The notes under the pieces: model-generated
What the model was told of the DNA's origin: nothing
Seen by the model: only the letters and a program-made list of their open reading frames with translations
Database searches by the model: none
Source of the DNA: Sedimenticola sp.
Lineage (GTDB): Bacteria > Pseudomonadota > Gammaproteobacteria > Chromatiales > Chromatiaceae
Assembly (NCBI GenBank): GCA_027041035.1
Contig: JALULB010000132.1
Coordinates: 1 to 11,931 of the forward strand
DNA: 11,931 nucleotides
Direction: 5' to 3'
In this document: piece after piece, positions 236 to 6,587 of the stretch
Numbering within the stretch: the first letter of the stretch is position 1
Layout of the letters: each line of letters begins with the position of its first letter
Translations under genes and position numbers: made by a program

Positions 236-808
236 ATGAAGCAGAGCACGCCGACAACATATCCGGCAAACGATCAGGTGATAACGGAAATCAAGATCCT
301 TATCTCCGGTCCGGTCTCCGCGGGCAAGACTACCGCCGTTTCGAGGGTATGCGACTCGGAGATCGTCAAGACCGAGGCCGCCTATACCGGGAGATGCCTT
401 GACGACGACAAGGACACCACGACGGTTGCGATGGATTATGGCCTGTGCAGTCGCTTTCCGGGCCACCGCATTCACCTGTACGGCACGCCCGGCCAGCAGC
501 GCTTCGATTTCATGTGGGATATTCTGGGCAAGGGCATGGACGGTATCATTATTCTTATCAATAATGACCAGCCGGCACCACACGAAACACTCAAGCAATT
601 TCTCGCGACGTTTTCCTCCCTGCCCACCGTGATTGGCGTCACCAAGATGGACCGGGACCCCGAGCCGTCCATCGGCGACTACCGGAAAATGCTGAAAAAA
701 CTCGATGCGTCCCACATCCCGGTATTCAATATCGATTCGAGGAGCCGTCGTGATGTTACCCTGTTGATCGACAACCTCCTGCCTTCCGTGGACGAGCAAC
801 GCCAATGA
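236..808 (+). CDS. Ras-like/MglA-type small GTPase (COG2229 family), first copy
   Basis: A cytoplasmic GTP-binding switch protein of 190 aa from the chosen start. Visible motifs are the P-loop GPVSAGKT (residues 25-32), a switch-I threonine region TTTVAMDYG (61-69), the G3 motif YGTPGQQRF (82-90, with glutamine at the usual catalytic position) and the G4 guanine-specificity motif TKMD (136-139). The LYGTPGQ and DFMWDIL signature is typical of the COG2229 proteins that include the Streptomyces conservon GTPases; MglA is a more distant relative. The frame is open back to an ATG at 92, but that stretch carries no family features and the paralogue at 3108 starts only 9 residues before its P-loop. 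ATG 236, with AGGA at 220-223, is therefore preferred. The stop overlaps the next start by ATGA, so the two proteins are probably co-translated partners. The family assignment is firm; the pathway is unknown. Confidence 0.88.
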   Translation: MKQSTPTTYPANDQVITEIKILISGPVSAGKTTAVSRVCDSEIVKTEAAYTGRCLDDDKDTTTVAMDYGLCSRFPGHRIHLYGTPGQQRFDFMWDILGKGMDGIIILINNDQPAPHETLKQFLATFSSLPTVIGVTKMDRDPEPSIGDYRKMLKKLDASHIPVFNIDSRSRRDVTLLIDNLLPSVDEQRQ

Positions 809-1431
809 GTACCTTCCAGCTTCGTGACAGCCTGTACATCGCATTGACGCCGGCTGGCGCCTACTACGCCGTTTCTGGAGAGGAACGCAACGAGCACCGT
901 ATCTTTCTGAACAAACTGCTGCGGCAACAGGCCACGATCGCCCTGACAGCGGAAAACCTGGCACATCTTACCGGCAGGGACGATTATCAGGAGCTACTCT
1001 ACCGCTGTCAGCAACTCGGCTGGCTGCAAGGCCTGACGGAACCGCTGAGCGTGCCGGAAGGCCAGTTGGAGACCATTCTGCAAGAGCTGCTCCCGAAACT
1101 CTCGGCAAATGGCCGGGTACTCCTGGCCGACGCCCACGGCTTCACCATCGTCTCATCGGGCTTCGATCAAAGCGTCGTTGACGAACTCGCCGCCCTGAGC
1201 GCCGATATTGCCATCGTCCACCAGAAATACCATCGCACCCTCGACGAAACCCTGAAGCTGGGTTCGAACGCCTGGGCGCTCGTGGACGCCGGAGGCAACA
1301 GCCAGGTCGGCTTCTGGCCGCTGTATATCGGCGAGCACCGCTTCGTCCTGGTTCTCGACGGCTCTACCCGCCTGAATCAACCTACGTTAACGACACTCAT
1401 TTGGGTGCTGGCCAACCGCTACGGCGTGTAA
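805..1431 (+). CDS. two-part protein with C-terminal roadblock/LC7-like domain, likely partner of the first GTPase
   Basis: A 208-aa protein with no signal peptide or membrane segment. Residues 1 to about 80 look helical and winged-helix-like, with no recognisable catalytic motif. Residues from about 92 to 208 read like a roadblock/LC7 fold: a helix (ETILQELLPKL), a strand pair around VLLADAHGFTIVSSGF, then a helix rich in alanine (DELAALSADIAIV), and later strands FWPLYIGEHRFVLVLD. Roadblock proteins such as MglB bind Ras-like GTPases as activators or scaffolds. The ATGA overlap with the upstream GTPase gene implies translational coupling and a physical partnership. It is longer than the usual single-domain roadblock protein of about 120 aa, and different from the classical one at 3765. 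The roadblock call rests on pattern recognition, not on a profile search. Confidence 0.68.
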   Translation: MSTFQLRDSLYIALTPAGAYYAVSGEERNEHRIFLNKLLRQQATIALTAENLAHLTGRDDYQELLYRCQQLGWLQGLTEPLSVPEGQLETILQELLPKLSANGRVLLADAHGFTIVSSGFDQSVVDELAALSADIAIVHQKYHRTLDETLKLGSNAWALVDAGGNSQVGFWPLYIGEHRFVLVLDGSTRLNQPTLTTLIWVLANRYGV

Positions 1432-1809
1432 TACCCGCCATTTGTAAATTTATGTAAAACCGATCGATAGCGGGAGTTACGCCCTTCCATTCAGGAGCGC
1501 AACCCGCGTATAGTATTGCGCAGTATGGGATAAGCATTCCCCCAAGCGACTTTGGGTCCCGCGTTCGCGCAAGAATCCTCGCGGCATCGGTAGCCAAACG
1601 CTGGCAGCCCGTACTTTGGCTTCAACTCAAGTAGCACGAAATCGCGTTGTCGATAGCCGCTCATTACAAGGACTCCGGTTTCGGTTCGGCTGGCCACGTC
1701 CTTGGCCCGCCCTCCCCGACAATGTGTTTTTCCCATGAATTTGGTAACGCCTCGGTGAGTAATTCGACGGTAGTAATCGAGAATCGATCCAAACAACAGG
1801 GACATACAG
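1432..1809. other. 378-bp intergenic region with the ribosome binding site of the next gene
   Basis: No convincing gene is present. A 67-codon frame from a TTG at 1647 runs into the next gene and has no Shine-Dalgarno sequence or family resemblance. No strong hairpin plus T-run follows the roadblock-like gene; a 5-bp CCCGC/GCGGG pairing (1434-1438 with 1470-1474) is too weak and too widely spaced. The only clear signal is AGGGA at 1798-1802, seven bases before the ATG at 1810. The gap suggests that the gene at 1810 has its own promoter, but I cannot locate one. Confidence 0.5.
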
Positions 1810-3030
1810 ATGTCAAGCAGTACACTCCGCGTCGCCACCGTGGGGCTTAGCGACAAGACCGAATCCACATTGAAGATGTTCCTCGAAAGGAAACACGATT
1901 CCTACAGCCTGGTCAGCTTCAACGACGCGCCCGACTGCGTCATTTTCGACCTGGATCGGCCAACCGGGCGCGCCCAGTGGCACCACTATCTCAATTCGGC
2001 GCAACGCAGCCCGCGTGCCAGCATATTGCTGTCGCTGAGCGGCTACGGCGACGCGGACTGCAAGCGCCTGCACCGGATTTGCACGCTGCTCAGGAAACCC
2101 ATCCGCCTGCACCAGATCCACGATGCGCTGGCAAGAGTACTCGAGCGAAAGCATGCCTCTCCGAGAGCGGATAGCTCACTGTATTCACCGCGTGGAACGA
2201 AAAACGGCGCGCGCACCGAAGCTACCGTGGACACCTCCACCCTTGATAACAATGGTGATTCATCGCTTTATCAGGCGGCGGCGAATCTGCCGGGCAAGGA
2301 CATCCCGGTCAGCTACAGCAACGCCGTGCAACTCTCGCGTAACGACACCCAGGGGATCAAGAAAGCACAATACAATCCCGACCAATATCTGCAAGGCTTT
2401 CTGGAAAAGGTGCTCGACGAGAATCAGGCCTCGGAAAACACAAGGGAAGTCCTCCATATAGCCACCAATGACGGTCCGATAACCCTGCATCTCGGCACGG
2501 GAAAGGCTTCCATCCATCTGAGCAAGTACCGCTTCCGCACCCTTTGTTCCCTGCCGCATGATGGCATTTCTCCACCGCCCTGGCGTCTCGTCGACGAACC
2601 AATCACCCCTCCCGGGAACCCGCACAAAAAACAGACATCCATCGAAAGCTTGATGTGGGTCGCGGCCATCTGGGCAGCTCGCGGGCGTTTCCCCCGCGAT
2701 TTGGACCTCGACAAATCGATACACCTGAGACATTGGCCAAACCTGACACGACTGACCAATACGCCACATGCCACCCGCATCACCGCGCTTTGGAGCCAGA
2801 ATGACTATTCCCTGCTGGACACCGCCGCGCTGCTCGGCATCGACCAGCGCCATGTCTTCACCTACGCAAGCGCCTGCCACGCACTGAAACTGCTCGAGTA
2901 CAATCGGCATGCTGTTTCTGTCGATCAACCCCGGTCGCGGGGTAAGCGTCAGGCACCACACAAGCACCGATCCCTGCTCGGGCGACTGCTCGCACGCATG
3001 TCGATCTTTTCCCGGGATCCCGACGAATAA
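1810..3030 (+). CDS. degenerate receiver-domain protein with an unrecognised C-terminal domain
   Basis: 406 aa, starting at an ATG with AGGGA seven bases upstream. Residues 5 to about 112 read like a response-regulator receiver fold: LRVATVGLS as the first strand, DCVIFDLDR (42-50) at the usual phosphoacceptor position, ILLSLSGY (72-79), and LRKPIR (94-99) with the conserved lysine. The acidic pocket expected at the end of the first strand is absent, so phosphorylation is doubtful. Residues about 113-175 are low-complexity linker. Residues about 260-350 form a compact helical region containing SIESLMWVAAIWAARGR, an arginine-rich stretch and SLLDTAALLGIDQRHVFTY, possibly winged-helix-like and for protein contact. 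The tail from about 365 is strongly basic. It lies between the two GTPase genes and may be an adaptor for them. It ends with tandem TAA TAA stops. The specific function is not recognised. Confidence 0.72.
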   Translation: MSSSTLRVATVGLSDKTESTLKMFLERKHDSYSLVSFNDAPDCVIFDLDRPTGRAQWHHYLNSAQRSPRASILLSLSGYGDADCKRLHRICTLLRKPIRLHQIHDALARVLERKHASPRADSSLYSPRGTKNGARTEATVDTSTLDNNGDSSLYQAAANLPGKDIPVSYSNAVQLSRNDTQGIKKAQYNPDQYLQGFLEKVLDENQASENTREVLHIATNDGPITLHLGTGKASIHLSKYRFRTLCSLPHDGISPPPWRLVDEPITPPGNPHKKQTSIESLMWVAAIWAARGRFPRDLDLDKSIHLRHWPNLTRLTNTPHATRITALWSQNDYSLLDTAALLGIDQRHVFTYASACHALKLLEYNRHAVSVDQPRSRGKRQAPHKHRSLLGRLLARMSIFSRDPDE

Positions 3031-3041
3031 TAAGCCATCAA

Positions 3042-3057
3042 GTCCTGCACTCAGGAC
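3042..3057. promoter_or_regulatory. perfect 6-bp hairpin/inverted repeat between the receiver gene and the second GTPase gene
   Basis: GTCCTG (3042-3047) and CAGGAC (3052-3057) are perfectly complementary around a 4-base CACT loop. It begins 11 bases after the stop of the upstream gene. No T-run follows, so it is more likely an RNA-stabilising or attenuating hairpin, or an operator, than a terminator. The same CCT...AGG core recurs in two palindromes upstream of the PAS gene. Confidence 0.3.
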
Positions 3058-3107
3058 GACATCACGAATCACGACTAAAATGGACGCGACAACAGGCAGC
3101 CACCCGC

Positions 3108-3704
3108 ATGTATCACCACAAAATCATCTTTACCGGCCCGGTCGGATCTGGCAAAACGACCGCGATAGAGACCTTGAGCGACGTGCCCGTGGTTTGTACC
3201 GATCAGCGCGCCACCGACAGCGATGAGATCGGCAAAGCCAAAACGACCGTCGCGATGGACTATGGAAAGATCCTGCTGAAGAGTGGTGAAACCATCCATC
3301 TATATGGCACCCCCGGTCAGGACCGTTTCGATTTCATGTGGGACATTCTGACCGAGGGGGGGATCGGGCTGATTATCCTGGTGGACAACTCCAACACCGA
3401 CCCGATCGATGATCTCGCACATTTTCTGACGGCGTTTTCGGACTTCATCGAACAGACCGCCACGGCAATTGGCGTGACACATACCGATGTCACAGTCCTG
3501 CGCAATCTTCAGCGTTATCATCAGCTATTGGAACGATTCGAACTGCGTTGCCCCCTTTTCGAGGTGGATGCCCGGGATCCGCGCGACATGAGCCGATTGA
3601 TGGAAGCACTACTGCTCTCGCTGGACCCTGGCATCCGCGCATCCGCCTTGGAAGCCGGCGACGAAAGCGCGTCTTCCCGGAATACCAAACCCGATCGCCA
3701 CTGA
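3108..3704 (+). CDS. Ras-like/MglA-type small GTPase (COG2229 family), second copy with divergent G4 motif
   Basis: A 198-aa paralogue of the GTPase at 236. It has P-loop GPVGSGKT (residues 10-17), the switch region TTVAMDYG (46-53), G3 YGTPGQDRF (66-74) followed by DFMWDIL, and a clear beta strand LIILVDN. The expected guanine-specificity motif (N/T)KxD is THTD at 124-127, so the lysine is replaced by histidine; nucleotide affinity or specificity may differ from the first copy. The C-terminal 25 residues or so are polar and look disordered. The ATG at 3108 places the P-loop close to the N-terminus, as in the family; only a weak AGG (3094-3096) precedes it. It lies 77 bp after the receiver gene and 60 bp before the roadblock gene, so a shared transcript is likely. 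The GTPase family is certain; the signalling output is unknown. Confidence 0.9.
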   Translation: MYHHKIIFTGPVGSGKTTAIETLSDVPVVCTDQRATDSDEIGKAKTTVAMDYGKILLKSGETIHLYGTPGQDRFDFMWDILTEGGIGLIILVDNSNTDPIDDLAHFLTAFSDFIEQTATAIGVTHTDVTVLRNLQRYHQLLERFELRCPLFEVDARDPRDMSRLMEALLLSLDPGIRASALEAGDESASSRNTKPDRH

Positions 3705-3730
3705 CGGCGGATGTGCTAACATCCTCCTGA

Positions 3731-3738
3731 CCCGATAA
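3731..3738 (+). promoter_or_regulatory. possible sigma-28-like -10 element before the roadblock gene
   Basis: CCCGATAA differs from the FliA -10 consensus GCCGATAA only at the first base, and lies 26 bases before the ATG at 3765. The -35 position at the expected 11-base spacing (3712-3719) does not resemble TAAAGTTT. On its own this would be dismissed; it is listed because the PAS gene downstream has a better match at a similar distance from its start. Confidence 0.2.
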
Positions 3739-3751
3739 CTATCTCATCTAT

Positions 3752-3757
3752 GAAGGA
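3752..3757 (+). promoter_or_regulatory. ribosome binding site that decides the roadblock gene start
   Basis: GAAGGA at 3752-3757 ends seven bases before the ATG at 3765. An in-frame ATG at 3750 overlaps this motif and has no Shine-Dalgarno sequence of its own. The start at 3765 is therefore preferred, which removes five residues (MKEKE) from the longer frame. Confidence 0.7.
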
Positions 3758-3764
3758 AAAAGAA

Positions 3765-4127
3765 ATGCGCATAGACATGATCGACAGCGTTCTCAGCGAC
3801 CTCAACGGCAGCTCCGCGGACATCGAGGCATCCAGCGTTGTCTCCACCGACGGCCTGATTATCGCGGCCCAACTGCCTTCCACCATGGATGAAGACCGTG
3901 TCGGCGCGATGAGCGCCGCGATGCTGTCTCTTGGTGACCGCACGGCCCAGGAACTGGGGCGCGGCACGCTCGATCAAGTATTGGTAAAAGGCGACGAGGG
4001 TTATGTCTTGATGATTCACGCAGGTCCCGATGCGGTGCTCACCGTACTGGCCAAGGCCAGTGCCCGGCTCGGACTGGTGTTTCTGGATGTGAAGCGTGCC
4101 GCGGAAAGCATCGCAAAGCTTGTATAG
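3765..4127 (+). CDS. roadblock/LC7 domain protein (MglB-like), partner of the second GTPase
   Basis: A classical single-domain roadblock/LC7 protein of 120 aa. The N-terminal helix (MIDSVLSDL) is followed by SSVVSTDGLIIAAQLP (residues 23-38), the strand-turn-strand hallmark of the family. Next come an alanine- and methionine-rich helix (RVGAMSAAMLSLGDRTAQEL, 45-64), strands QVLVKGDEGYVLMIHAG (71-87) and AVLTVLA, then the closing helix VKRAAESIAKLV. Such proteins dimerise and bind Ras-like GTPases; MglB is the GTPase-activating protein of MglA, and CvnB fills the equivalent place in Streptomyces conservons. Its position 60 bp behind the second GTPase gene makes that protein the obvious partner. 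The start is chosen from the strong GAAGGA site. Whether it stimulates GTP hydrolysis or acts as a scaffold is inference. Confidence 0.9.
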   Translation: MRIDMIDSVLSDLNGSSADIEASSVVSTDGLIIAAQLPSTMDEDRVGAMSAAMLSLGDRTAQELGRGTLDQVLVKGDEGYVLMIHAGPDAVLTVLAKASARLGLVFLDVKRAAESIAKLV

Positions 4128-4211
4128 AATTCCTTGATTCAACATCACAAAAAAACGATAACCAACTGAATCCATTGGGACTAAAAAAGAAAACACCAGA
4201 CACCATGCCGG

Positions 4212-4222
4212 TACCTCAGGTA
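4212..4222. promoter_or_regulatory. palindrome overlapping the -35 side of the PAS-gene promoter
   Basis: TACCTCAGGTA is a perfect 5+5 palindrome with one central base. It ends inside the candidate sigma-28 -35 element. A second palindrome with the same CCT...AGG core lies at 4248-4258. It may be an operator half of a pair; no regulator is identified. Confidence 0.25.
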
Positions 4223-4247
4223 TAGAAAGCGGCCCCTCGGCCGATAC
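4221..4247 (+). promoter_or_regulatory. candidate sigma-28 (FliA) promoter of the PAS gene
   Basis: TATAGAAA (4221-4228), an exact 11-base spacer, then GCCGATAC (4240-4247). The FliA consensus is TAAAGTTT-N11-GCCGATAA. The -10 matches 7 of 8 bases with the correct spacing; the -35 matches only 4 of 8. It lies 30 bases before the PAS start codon in otherwise non-coding sequence, a plausible place for a promoter. This would tie the PAS protein and the overlapping PhnD-like gene to flagellar or chemotaxis expression. Confidence 0.42.
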
Positions 4248-4258
4248 GCCTGTCAGGC
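4248..4258. promoter_or_regulatory. palindrome just downstream of the candidate -10 of the PAS gene
   Basis: GCCTGTCAGGC is a perfect 5+5 palindrome with one central base, starting directly after the candidate -10, about where transcription would begin. Its centre is 36 bases from that of the palindrome at 4212-4222. This is a reasonable site for a repressor, but the evidence is symmetry alone. Confidence 0.25.
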
Positions 4259-4277
4259 CAATATCTAGGGACACAAT

Positions 4278-4763
4278 ATGCAGGACATGTGCCCAGGGGA
4301 CATCGCTGGAAACTATACCGAGCACCGTCTGCGCTACTTCGACGGCAGCCAGAGAACCGTGCTGGTCAGCGAGACGGAAACACCCTACCCCGAGGGTCGC
4401 TTGATCGTATCGCGAACGGACCTCGAGGGCGTGCTGACCCACGTCAACCAGTCCTTTGTCGACATGGCCGGCTATACCGAACAGGAACTGATCGGCGCGC
4501 CCCACAGCATCCTGCGACATCCCGACATGCCAAAGGCCGCTTTCGCCGACCTGTGGCAAACCGTTACCGCCGGCAAACCCTGGCAGGGCTACGTCAAGAA
4601 CCTGCGCAAGGACGGCGGCTATTATTGGGTTCTCGCCACGGTAATCCCCAATGTCCGCGAGGGGCGGGTGGTGAGCTACACCTCGGTGCGCAGAAAACCG
4701 TCGCGCGGCAAGGTGGAAGAACACGCCGCGCTCTATCGCAAGCTCCGCCGGGAAGAAAGCTGA
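4278..4763 (+). CDS. stand-alone PAS protein of the Aer (aerotaxis receptor) type
   Basis: 161 aa, ATG preceded by TAGGGA (4266-4271) at six bases. Residues about 38-140 form one PAS domain very like that of the aerotaxis receptor Aer: LIVSRTDLEGVLTHVNQSF, then DMAGYTEQELIGAPHSILRH, PDMP, AFADLWQTVTAGKPWQGYVKN, RKDGGYYWVLATVIPN and a closing strand SYTSVR. In Aer this domain holds FAD and senses redox state or electron-transport flow. Here there is no transmembrane segment, HAMP or methyl-accepting domain; the remaining C-terminal 20 residues are a charged helix that could be a contact site. It is therefore likely a soluble redox sensor delivering its signal to a neighbour. The next gene starts within its stop (TGATG), suggesting coupled production. 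FAD binding is inferred from family similarity, not seen directly. Confidence 0.85.
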   Translation: MQDMCPGDIAGNYTEHRLRYFDGSQRTVLVSETETPYPEGRLIVSRTDLEGVLTHVNQSFVDMAGYTEQELIGAPHSILRHPDMPKAAFADLWQTVTAGKPWQGYVKNLRKDGGYYWVLATVIPNVREGRVVSYTSVRRKPSRGKVEEHAALYRKLRREES

Positions 4764-5512
4764 TGACCCTACAGTTCGCAATCAGCCCCGATTTCCCGCC
4801 CGAGCATATTCCCGGCTGGTATATCTTCAATACCTGGCTGCAACGGGAACTGGATTGCGCCATCCATCTGCAACTGTACGACAACTTCGGCGACCTGCGC
4901 GAGGCAATCCATGCCGACCGCCTGGACCTGGTCTACGCCAACCCGTTCGACGCCTCGTTACTCGTCAGGGAGAAACATTTCATGCCGTTGGCGCGCGCGG
5001 ACAACCTTCAGGACGAAGCCGTCGTGCTGACCGCGGATCATCACCGCGCCCGACACATCGAGGATCTGCGTCCGGGCACGGTAATCGCCGCGACCGACGT
5101 TCCCGATATCGAGATGATGGGGATGATCATGATCGAACCAGCGGATCTGAACCGGAACAACACCCAGCGCATTACCTGCGACAACTACGTCATGGTGGCA
5201 AAACAGCTACTCAACGACGAGGCCGATATCGGTTTTTTCCTTGCCGAGGCATTCGACAACCTCTCCGATCTGGTCAAGAACCAGCTGCGCCCACTGGTGC
5301 GCAGCCAGATCCAGGTGATACACCACAGCCTGATGGCCGGCCCCGCCCTTCAGGAGCGGCACGCGACCTTGCAGCAGCTGCTGACCACGATGGACACATC
5401 CGAAAAAGGACAGGGTGTACTGGATGCCCTGAAGATACACCGATGGAGCCCGCTCGCCCAAGAAGACAGCGAGTTCATGATCGATCTGATGGATACTCTG
5501 ATGATCAGTTGA
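4763..5512 (+). CDS. PhnD-like substrate-binding-fold protein without signal peptide (SBP-1)
   Basis: 249 aa. The ATG shares its A with the stop of the PAS gene, and GGAAG at 4751-4755 sits seven bases upstream. The sequence follows the phosphate/phosphonate-type periplasmic binding fold: FAISPDFPPE at the N-terminus, LREAIHADRLDLVYANPFDA (45-64), PLARADNLQDEAVVLTADHH (75-94), then a loop with DLRPGTVIAATD, and DEADIGFFLAEAFDNL (152-167) as the second-lobe ligand region. Members used for ABC uptake carry a Sec signal or lipoprotein box, and neither is present: the chain begins directly with the first strand. No permease or ATPase gene is nearby. It is probably a cytoplasmic ligand sensor working with the PAS and GTPase proteins. 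The ligand cannot be predicted. An 8-bp target duplication of the mobile element includes its stop codon, but the coding sequence is unchanged. Confidence 0.8.
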   Translation: MTLQFAISPDFPPEHIPGWYIFNTWLQRELDCAIHLQLYDNFGDLREAIHADRLDLVYANPFDASLLVREKHFMPLARADNLQDEAVVLTADHHRARHIEDLRPGTVIAATDVPDIEMMGMIMIEPADLNRNNTQRITCDNYVMVAKQLLNDEADIGFFLAEAFDNLSDLVKNQLRPLVRSQIQVIHHSLMAGPALQERHATLQQLLTTMDTSEKGQGVLDALKIHRWSPLAQEDSEFMIDLMDTLMIS

Positions 5513-5513
5513 T
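5506..5513. repeat. left target-site duplication of the mobile element
   Basis: CAGTTGAT directly abuts the left end of the element and is repeated exactly at 5783-5790 on the other side. An 8-bp duplication is the size made by IS66-family transposases. The copy contains the TGA stop of SBP-1. Confidence 0.85.
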
Positions 5514-5545
5514 GTAACTACTCAGCTAACCGCTGAAATGCGCCA
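5514..5545. repeat. left arm of a 32-bp imperfect inverted repeat inside the element
   Basis: This arm matches the complement of 5720-5751 at 27 of 32 positions without gaps, including a 13-base identical block (CCGCTGAAATGCG at 5531-5543). It begins with the left terminal repeat itself. Confidence 0.85.
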
Positions 5546-5610
5546 GCTCTACGTTCAAAAATGGTCATTTACACTTGTAACCCGGCAATTGCTCCTGCAT
5601 TGCCCTAACT

Positions 5611-5646
5611 TTCATGACGCGGGGTGGCGCCACCCCAGATCATGAA
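5611..5646. repeat. long central hairpin of the element
   Basis: The core GGGGTGGCGCCACCCC (5621-5636) is a perfect 16-bp palindrome. It is flanked by TTCATGA (5611-5617) and TCATGAA (5640-5646), complementary to each other across 3-base internal mismatches. Neither strand has a T-run after the stem, so it is unlikely to be an intrinsic terminator by itself, though it could slow polymerase or protect RNA ends between the convergent genes. Confidence 0.75.
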
Positions 5647-5719
5647 AAATCTATGACTTAGGTGTATTTTCACATTAATAAGTTACATCCCTGTAACGAT
5701 CACATTTTTTGCCTTGATC

Positions 5720-5751
5720 TGACGCATTTCAGCGGCGATCTGAGCAGTTAC
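5720..5751. repeat. right arm of the 32-bp imperfect inverted repeat; internal copy of the element tip
   Basis: It is complementary to 5514-5545 at 27 of 32 positions. Its outer part, CTGAGCAGTTAC (5740-5751), repeats the true right tip CTGAGTAGTTAC (5771-5782) with one mismatch in 12, 31 bases away. The right side therefore carries two tip-like sequences in tandem. Confidence 0.8.
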
Positions 5752-5782
5752 CCATGTTTTAAACAACTCGCTGAGTAGTTAC

Positions 5783-5790
5783 CAGTTGAT
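5783..5790. repeat. right target-site duplication of the mobile element
   Basis: CAGTTGAT is identical to 5506-5513 and directly abuts the right terminal inverted repeat. Confidence 0.85.
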
Positions 5791-5819
5791 CAGGATACCT
5801 GCCCCGTGACGGCAGCGAG

Positions 5820-6587
5820 TCACTGGAGCGCAACCTGATCGAGCAGGCCACGCAGTTCCGTGACCCGTCCGAGTATAGCCTCGTCCGAAGCGATCAGGCG
5901 TTCCATCCCGAGCTCGGACAAGACCGCCTTGCCCTGGGGTGTCTCGTGCATGCCCAGCAATACCCGGGTGACTGGCCCCCGCTGACTCTCGCGACGGGGA
6001 TTCAACAGAAAGGAATGGTAGACCGAACCCTCGTTGGTCTCATCCAGCACACGCACCATCTTTCGGCTCAGTCGGCCCAAGCCGTCGAAATAATCTTTAT
6101 AGATGAAACCGAACGGCACCTCCTTGCGCGCCACGGCATTCATTACCGCCAACCAGCTATCCTTGCCCACCAGCCTCGCGGGGGCCACTCCGTCCATCCG
6201 TAGCCTGGCAAGCGCCAGACAGGTTGGCAGCATGCTGGGCACCGAAGCCACCTCGCGACCGGCAACCGAGCGCAAGGACAGATTGGGCGTCAGCTCCGAC
6301 ATACGGCTATTCGCGATAATGACCACCTCGTCGAACAGATTCGACGCCCGAGCCACGACATGGAAGCCGTGCCCGGTACAGAGATTGAAGGTATCTTGCG
6401 GGTTCGCATAGACAATGTCCGCCGACTCGATCTGCCGGTGATAATCGGCAAAGCCCGCCGACGGCGAAAAACGAATGCGCGTGGCCTCCAATTGTTGACC
6501 GAGGTACTGAGCAAACGTAAACCAGCGATCCGGATTCTTGGCGGTATCGTGCGGGCACACCGACAACCCCAGGCTCTCGGAGGTCAT
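5820..6587 (-). CDS. PhnD-like substrate-binding-fold protein without signal peptide (SBP-2)
   Basis: 255 aa on the minus strand, facing SBP-1. The two share the fold landmarks: ADIVYANPQDTFNL (56-69) against LDLVYANPFDASLL, VARASNLFDEVVI (78-90) against LARADNLQDEAVV, and PFGFIYKDYFDGL (158-170) against DIGFFLAEAFDNL, so they are paralogues. The N-terminus (LGLSVCPHDTAKNP) starts at the first beta strand with no signal peptide, lipobox or membrane helix, again suggesting a cytoplasmic binding protein. The only nearby Shine-Dalgarno-like sequence is a weak GGTGG just upstream. A 15-bp palindrome lies 13 bases upstream of the start codon and may control it. Its ligand is unknown; the divergence of the pocket residues around positions 61-66 suggests a different ligand from SBP-1. 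Confidence 0.8.
   Translation of the reverse strand: MTSESLGLSVCPHDTAKNPDRWFTFAQYLGQQLEATRIRFSPSAGFADYHRQIESADIVYANPQDTFNLCTGHGFHVVARASNLFDEVVIIANSRMSELTPNLSLRSVAGREVASVPSMLPTCLALARLRMDGVAPARLVGKDSWLAVMNAVARKEVPFGFIYKDYFDGLGRLSRKMVRVLDETNEGSVYHSFLLNPRRESQRGPVTRVLLGMHETPQGKAVLSELGMERLIASDEAILGRVTELRGLLDQVALQ

Follow-up and report, generated by a model that had tools for sequence, protein, structure and literature searches.

A Group 3 MglA-like GTPase operon in Sedimenticola sp. with a putative two-protein PAS and PhnD-fold sensor

MglA GTPases have been divided into five groups, of which Group 3 is almost confined to beta- and gammaproteobacteria and combines a receiver-like/winged-helix-like protein with MglA and one or two MglB proteins (Wuichet & Sogaard-Andersen, 2014; PMC4316618). 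The signs of the group given there are a GTPGQ motif, threonine in place of arginine in G2, a G4 motif that often lacks lysine, DAR in G5 and an Asp-Gly pair in MglB; the passages that describe it name no input, whether PAS, PhnD-fold, CZB, FIST or globin, nor a partner like the protein that we call Z below. Here we describe positions 236 to 6,587 of an 11,931-nucleotide stretch of DNA from Sedimenticola sp. (assembly GCA_027041035.1, contig JALULB010000132.1, here C132; the whole stretch is referred to as the window). We put the probability at roughly 0.6 that this locus forms a signalling operon around a Group 3 MglA G protein, with a plug-in sensor made of two proteins. The original prediction for this DNA had proposed a candidate new signalling island, but the composition of the core turns out to be that of the published Group 3 system (PMC4316618). 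The sensor pair and the swapping of sensors look new, neither having been found in print in our searches of the open-licence literature, which also contained no experimental study of a Group 3 MglA system that we could find.

Other described systems resemble the locus in part. The actinobacterial conservons (CvnA-D) likewise place a small GTPase, a roadblock protein and a dedicated sensor in one operon (PMC4316618, PMC13343842, PMC8510531), but their sensor is a membrane histidine kinase, whereas the sensors here are soluble and stand beside a receiver/winged-helix protein; the window contains neither a CvnA histidine kinase nor a CvnC. The MglA/MglB/RomR system of Myxococcus shares a GTPase, a roadblock GTPase-activating protein and a receiver protein with our locus, but its GTPase belongs to Group 1, with a TVPGQ motif and an arginine finger, and its output is polarity. 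HGbRL of Methylacidiphilum also joins a cytosolic sensor domain, in this case a globin, to a roadblock domain, but it is described as a single fused protein whose operon includes a methyltransferase rather than a GTPase, receiver, PAS or PhnD fold (PMC4476040).

All the genes named in the original prediction are present, about where it had placed them: profile and fold matches recover two small GTPases (A and D), their roadblock or roadblock-like partners (B and E), a protein with a degenerate receiver (C), a PAS protein of the Aer type (F) and two proteins of the PhnD fold (G and H). D (positions 3108 to 3704, forward strand) is assigned to Group 3 MglA by its motifs, profile match and place in a tree. 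Both D and the extra, Group 3-like GTPase A (236 to 808, forward strand; the start codon is uncertain and the frame is open from 92) match ATP_bind_1 above its cut-off of 27 bits, at 48.8 and 31.2 bits respectively, and the small_GTP domain only below its cut-off. Both read LYGTPGQ and TTVAMDYG and so carry GTPGQ (GTPGQD in the G3 motif of D, GTPGQQ in the LYGTPGQQ-type G3 of A) and threonine in G2 (TT), instead of the TVPGQ and arginine finger of Group 1. The two differ at G4 and G5, where D has THTD, without the lysine, and DAR, as described for Group 3, whereas A keeps the lysine in TKMD and has DSR. In a tree of 157 GTPases, which left out loci numbered under 20, 117-137 and 156-185 and in which no G3 motif was recognized in four sequences and a few motifs were called wrongly, D clusters with GTPases of the same genus (0.98) and then with those of the operon type called type I below (0.80-0.89). 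It is 83% and 69% identical to the GTPases of two metagenome-assembled genomes filed as Sedimenticola sp. (loci L020 and L021), and as a single-sequence query it had no match among solved structures. Relatives of D are present in 10 of 55 genomes, its own included. We also searched a class draw of 369 genomes, again with its own included, and a phylum draw of 398 genomes that overlaps the first; D-type GTPases match at 1e-10 in 65 of the 369 class genomes, at 97 places.

D is followed by E (3750 to 4127, forward strand), an MglB-type roadblock/LC7 protein (PF03259, Robl_LC7, 8.6e-18) that probably starts at 3765 because its relatives begin with MRxDM. Its pair Asp34-Gly35, the Asp-Gly expected of a Group 3 MglB, is invariant in a 12-sequence alignment. 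The claim that each GTPase is followed by a roadblock-like partner is thus clear in the case of E; B (805 to 1431, forward strand; 208 residues), which follows A, matches PF03259 at 0.0088, under the cut-off. B has 223 relatives and is the usual second partner in the wider operon, and 14 of the 21 members of its family that were scanned (own included) match roadblock at 0.1, the best at 3.9e-4.

C (1810 to 3030, forward strand) has no Pfam match, and AlphaFold, Foldseek and alignment divide it into a degenerate receiver, a linker and a conserved C-terminal region. The AlphaFold model (46 sequences; mean predicted local distance difference test score, pLDDT, 79) folds as a receiver over roughly residues 5-116, followed by a low-confidence linker (120-170) and an ordered C-terminal half, and the best Foldseek match for the receiver part is KdpE (3.5e-4). 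Asp49, Lys96, Pro97, Trp309 and Pro310 are invariant in the 46 sequences. The canonical acid pair appears to be missing, and phosphorylation of C is doubtful because position 47, the phospho-acceptor, reads as Asn in six loci (L140, L141, L143, L144, L147 and L150). The C-terminal block is conserved, and a winged helix at this place is the published prediction for the family (PMC4316618). Upstream of C, 27 of 33 type I loci (for example L100, L103, L105 and L138) encode Z, a so far undescribed protein, roughly 240 residues long, that was not found in the window; it has one weak TPR match (1.8e-4; 22.3 bits against a cut-off of 23.5) and is possibly an effector.

The order of these genes was followed in 58 loci, read with profiles made from the genes of the window and their relatives. 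Forty of them surround the better-scoring GTPase places (about 140 bits and up), most weaker places being left unread, and 18 had been fetched earlier, 14 of these because PhnD was present; some are one contig fetched twice (L020/L114, L021/L115). Sorted by script, 33 loci are of type I, Z-C-GTPase-B-E, although one of these (L186) is doubtful, having been placed there by weak B and F matches while its genes are ordered as in the ABC/ferredoxin subtype. Eleven are of type II (C-GTPase-roadblock-second roadblock), two of type III (C-GTPase-ABC ATPase-roadblock-ferredoxin) and 12 of other kinds, several of them cut by contig ends. The cassette is also present on a contig filed as Actinomycetota (L025), where misbinning and transfer are both possible. 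A layout like type III, in which genes for an ABC-type ATPase, one or two roadblock proteins and often a 2Fe-2S ferredoxin-like protein come after that of the Group 3 GTPase, was noticed in L023, L055, L058, L061, L186, L194 and L206, and in a Verrucomicrobiaceae metagenome-assembled genome (L024) a gene that reads as globin-like lies between the roadblock gene and the GTPase.

Downstream of E the window encodes the two proteins that we regard as the sensor. F (4278 to 4763, forward strand; PAS_3, 3.3e-18) is an Aer-type PAS protein that stands on its own and is extended at the N-terminus by about 40 residues. It matches the solved Aer PAS structure 8dik at 1.1e-39 over residues 33-155 (123 residues), with an RHPDMPKA block in common, and on the strength of this match F is expected to bind flavin adenine dinucleotide (FAD) and to be a redox sensor. 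The PAS domain of the Aer aerotaxis receptor is closely alike, but F lacks a HAMP or signalling domain. G (4763 to 5512, forward strand; PF12974, 6e-36) begins at the last base of F, in line with the overlap claimed in the original prediction. Its AlphaFold model, made from a 26-sequence alignment and with a mean pLDDT of 91, shows the fold shared by PtxB, ArrX and PhnD, and Foldseek matches it to PtxB at 1.7e-17; as a single-sequence query G had no match among solved structures. The model opens with a strand at residues 3-7, and among the 120 relatives listed most have 248 residues. With the stop codon of F at its start and this strand at the head of its model, G has no room for the signal peptide that PhnD/PtxB binding proteins possess, so that the absence of such a peptide, claimed earlier for both PhnD-like proteins, has a structural basis in G. 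No ABC permease or ATPase neighbours G within the window. ArrX and AioX act in sensing; they and PtxB/PhnD are exported, whereas G would be cytosolic.

The sensor genes are closely linked to the core. A search with G at 1e-20 found 20 places in 19 of the 369 class genomes. At all 16 close places (at least 174 bits, own included; 16 of 369 genomes) F and E lie directly upstream; at L131, where the sequence includes a run of N, both match weakly. F is present at none of the four weaker places (97-122 bits). The phylum draw adds close places in G684 and G651, both with the order B-E-F-G, making 18 of 18 close places that adjoin F and E in the two draws together. Co-occurrence in other gammaproteobacterial genomes was one of the checks on which the original prediction had staked itself, and the 16 of 16 class-draw places support its idea that gammaproteobacteria have a GTPase switch partnered by PAS and PhnD-fold proteins. 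Among 15 loci in which the spacing of F and G was measured, with starts set by a pattern, six have a four-base overlap, and in 14 the two genes either overlap or are at most 28 bases apart. A D-type GTPase match (1e-10) is found in 17 of the 19 PhnD-positive genomes against 65 of 369 overall (Fisher 2.9e-12, an optimistic value, since the genomes are related and the linked cassettes account for 14 of the 17). With these cautions about kinship and self-linkage, the association of the core with PAS and PhnD is well beyond chance. PAS and PhnD genes accompany 15 of the 33 type I loci, a figure that is biased upward by the 14 of 58 loci selected for PhnD and unusable as a rate. At one weaker place, L137/L153 of genome G204, a STAS domain shares an open frame with the PhnD fold and adjoins a weak roadblock match (1.6e-7).

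The PAS and PhnD genes behave as one unit, which in two pairs of related genomes is present or absent at the same syntenic spot. In two loci from one genus, L150 (genome G108) and L195 (G235), E is identical over 120 residues and 16 proteins are in matching order, and only L150 has F-G. Likewise, in one family F-G is present in L151 (G107; here G is split over two frames) and absent from L190 (G337), with the same downstream gene family in both (33% identity). A search with F in nine genomes gave five places above 200 bits, all five with G alongside, one of them (in G022) away from the core. In a few other type I loci the slot after E holds different proteins: CZB in L100, L102 and L103 (PF13682, 1.3e-12, tested for L103), a V4R-like protein in L100 and L102 (a very weak match, 0.1), FIST in L101 (8.7e-36) and L202 (by profile), protoglobin in L192 (8.6e-26) and a methyl-accepting chemotaxis protein (MCP) signalling protein in L189 (2.6e-42). 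Furthermore, in L101, L146 and L202 the Group 3 GTPase shares its open frame with a protein kinase domain, and in two of these loci FIST genes follow.

A scheme that accommodates these observations has a core of the GTPase D, the roadblock protein E, the roadblock-like protein B and the receiver/winged-helix protein C, often with Z, into which F and G would plug. Redox state, through the FAD expected in F, and a cytosolic ligand of G, probably not a phosphonate, would change the shape of the two proteins. They may then contact the roadblock proteins (E, perhaps E/B) and thereby determine how quickly the GTPase goes back to its GDP form; that such inputs set its nucleotide state, as the original prediction also proposed, is what we infer. 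The GTP form would engage C, whose putative DNA-binding C-terminal domain would alter transcription. More tentatively, Group 3 MglA cores in general could be a G-protein hub to which soluble sensors are coupled interchangeably. Input would then be joined to transcription by a Ras-like switch rather than a kinase, and in the present locus a cytosolic binding-protein fold would act as the sensor that gates a small GTPase. Such a hub, if real, would be a counterpart of two-component and chemotaxis systems, its sensors comprising Aer-PAS with a binding-protein fold, CZB, V4R-like, FIST, protoglobin and MCP proteins, sometimes with a GTPase-fused kinase. The F-G pair and the other slot sensors give one class of bacterial Ras-like switches a concrete input that can be tested; the genome pairs with and without F-G are natural comparisons.

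Several observations weigh against a Group 3 operon with F-G as its sensor. Profile comparison of B with E (hhalign) gave no support for their relatedness, leaving a roadblock-like B plausible, not proven, and Foldseek supports only the receiver of C and did not recover its winged helix. The core evidently does not need F-G: PAS and PhnD lie beside a roadblock gene in 14 of the 65 D-positive class genomes, and in many type I loci, such as L187, L188, L195, L196, L198, L199 and L203, no sensor is evident behind E. In G600 a distant PhnD stands behind E without PAS (GTPase-B-E-PhnD), and distant PhnD genes are unlinked to the core in G059, G204 and G312. Conversely, L139, from a 98% complete genome (G178), has Z, C, B, E, F and G and no GTPase at an E-value of 0.001; G397, where the start of the contig truncates the cassette, also lacks a GTPase match. 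Finally, contig 112 of G022 carries F-G alone, beside genes read as molybdate transport.

These last cases bear on the strongest alternative, that F-G is a redox/ligand sensor in its own right, merely co-transcribed with the core and signalling elsewhere, for example to chemotaxis or transport. The solitary F-G pair of G022, the F-G pair without a GTPase in G178 and the membership of F in a PAS family known from chemotaxis all speak for it. We nevertheless consider it unlikely, given that every close G place in the two draws adjoins F and E, that D-type GTPases are far commoner in PhnD-positive genomes, and that G022 itself holds the core on another contig (L110).

A second alternative concerns the output. 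Group 1 MglA controls surface motility and type IV pili (PMC4316618), and the present system might do the same as in Myxococcus, with F and G supplying taxis inputs. Some of the inputs (PAS, CZB, MCP) do resemble chemoreceptor parts, and in L192 pilB lies beside the cassette (PilB match in G211, contig C82, 14773-16449) together with a gene that reads as pilC-like. However, PilB is matched in 342 of the 369 class genomes (252 over the cut-off) and, being nearly universal, does not separate the cassette genomes, for which reason we rejected a type IV pilus link; the best PilB E-values in the cassette genomes G009 and G178 are only 3e-191 and 1e-178, and G349 is absent from the matched list. C, moreover, is predicted to be a transcription regulator (PMC4316618). 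Control of motility is on balance improbable, somewhat more so than independent signalling by F-G.

The label 'PhnD' in the original prediction suggests phosphonate, and PtxB, ArrX and PhnD are indeed the best solved relatives of G. PtxB holds its oxyanion by an STS-H motif and a hinge tyrosine (PMC5700983). In a weak profile alignment of G with PtxB (24.9 bits) Ser124 corresponds to Asp115, Thr125 to residue 116, His155 to Tyr142 and the hinge Tyr94 to Asp84, with Ser126 falling in a two-residue insertion. Asp84, Glu85, Thr111, Pro114 and Asp115 of G are invariant in 26 relatives and at least 90% conserved in 36. Because the site is conserved but acidic, G probably has a real ligand that is not a phosphonate, to the extent that this alignment can be trusted. 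A role for G as a phosphonate or phosphite sensor coupling phosphorus supply to the GTPase is accordingly very improbable and was rejected, since G does not keep the STS-H motif of PtxB/PhnD.

The two GTPase-roadblock pairs of the window are a peculiarity of this genus. In the tree A pairs solely with L111 of a same-genus genome (G001; 0.97), on a deep branch. G001 has Z-C'-A-B on one contig and C-D-E-F-G on another, and the window, in which A and B precede the C-D-E-F-G block, therefore looks like an operon carrying an extra GTPase module, a feature that also sets it apart from the published Group 3 systems. The window begins at base 1 of its contig, 235 bases ahead of A, so anything further upstream is hidden (the source genome is 62.7% complete, in 404 contigs). 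Two pairs as a general plan were rejected: the full order Z-C-GTPase-B-E-F-G has a single GTPase in 11 loci (L105, L138, L140-L144, L146, L147, L150 and L151); L149 is fragmentary, and L145 and L148 are cut by contig starts. Two GTPase genes occur in 5 of the 40 GTPase-centred loci, close together in L201, L207, L212 and L213 and several kilobases apart in L225. A Rag/Ragulator-like heterodimer of A and D was considered, prompted by one LAMTOR5 match at 0.055 among the 21 B family members, and is left as speculation.

H (5820 to 6587, reverse strand; PF12974, 6e-19), the second PhnD-fold protein, also appears to lack a signal peptide, as judged by reading its N-terminus. It is convergent to the other genes and hence outside the operon of G. 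H is found again in G002, a genome of the same genus (locus L114, whose contig seems to be that of L020), and did not prove to be a conserved part of the system. Second PhnD genes are also present in G651, in tandem, and in G178, between B and E of L139, and thus seem to have been added more than once.

Between G and H, at 5514-5782, lies an inverted-repeat element with 47-base arms that are 77% complementary, the outer 13 bases being perfect. It looks like an abundant repeat resembling a miniature inverted-repeat transposable element, with 70 matching stretches in the genome. The central ~67 bases, with a GGGTGGCGCCACCC palindrome, are missing from most copies. Three full copies have them, one being that of the window, and a further such copy, on contig C365, is cut. 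Further downstream of the cassette the genes are ordinary: folE2 and a GGDEF/EAL protein, recognized by profile matches, and a gene that from its sequence appears to encode argininosuccinate synthase.

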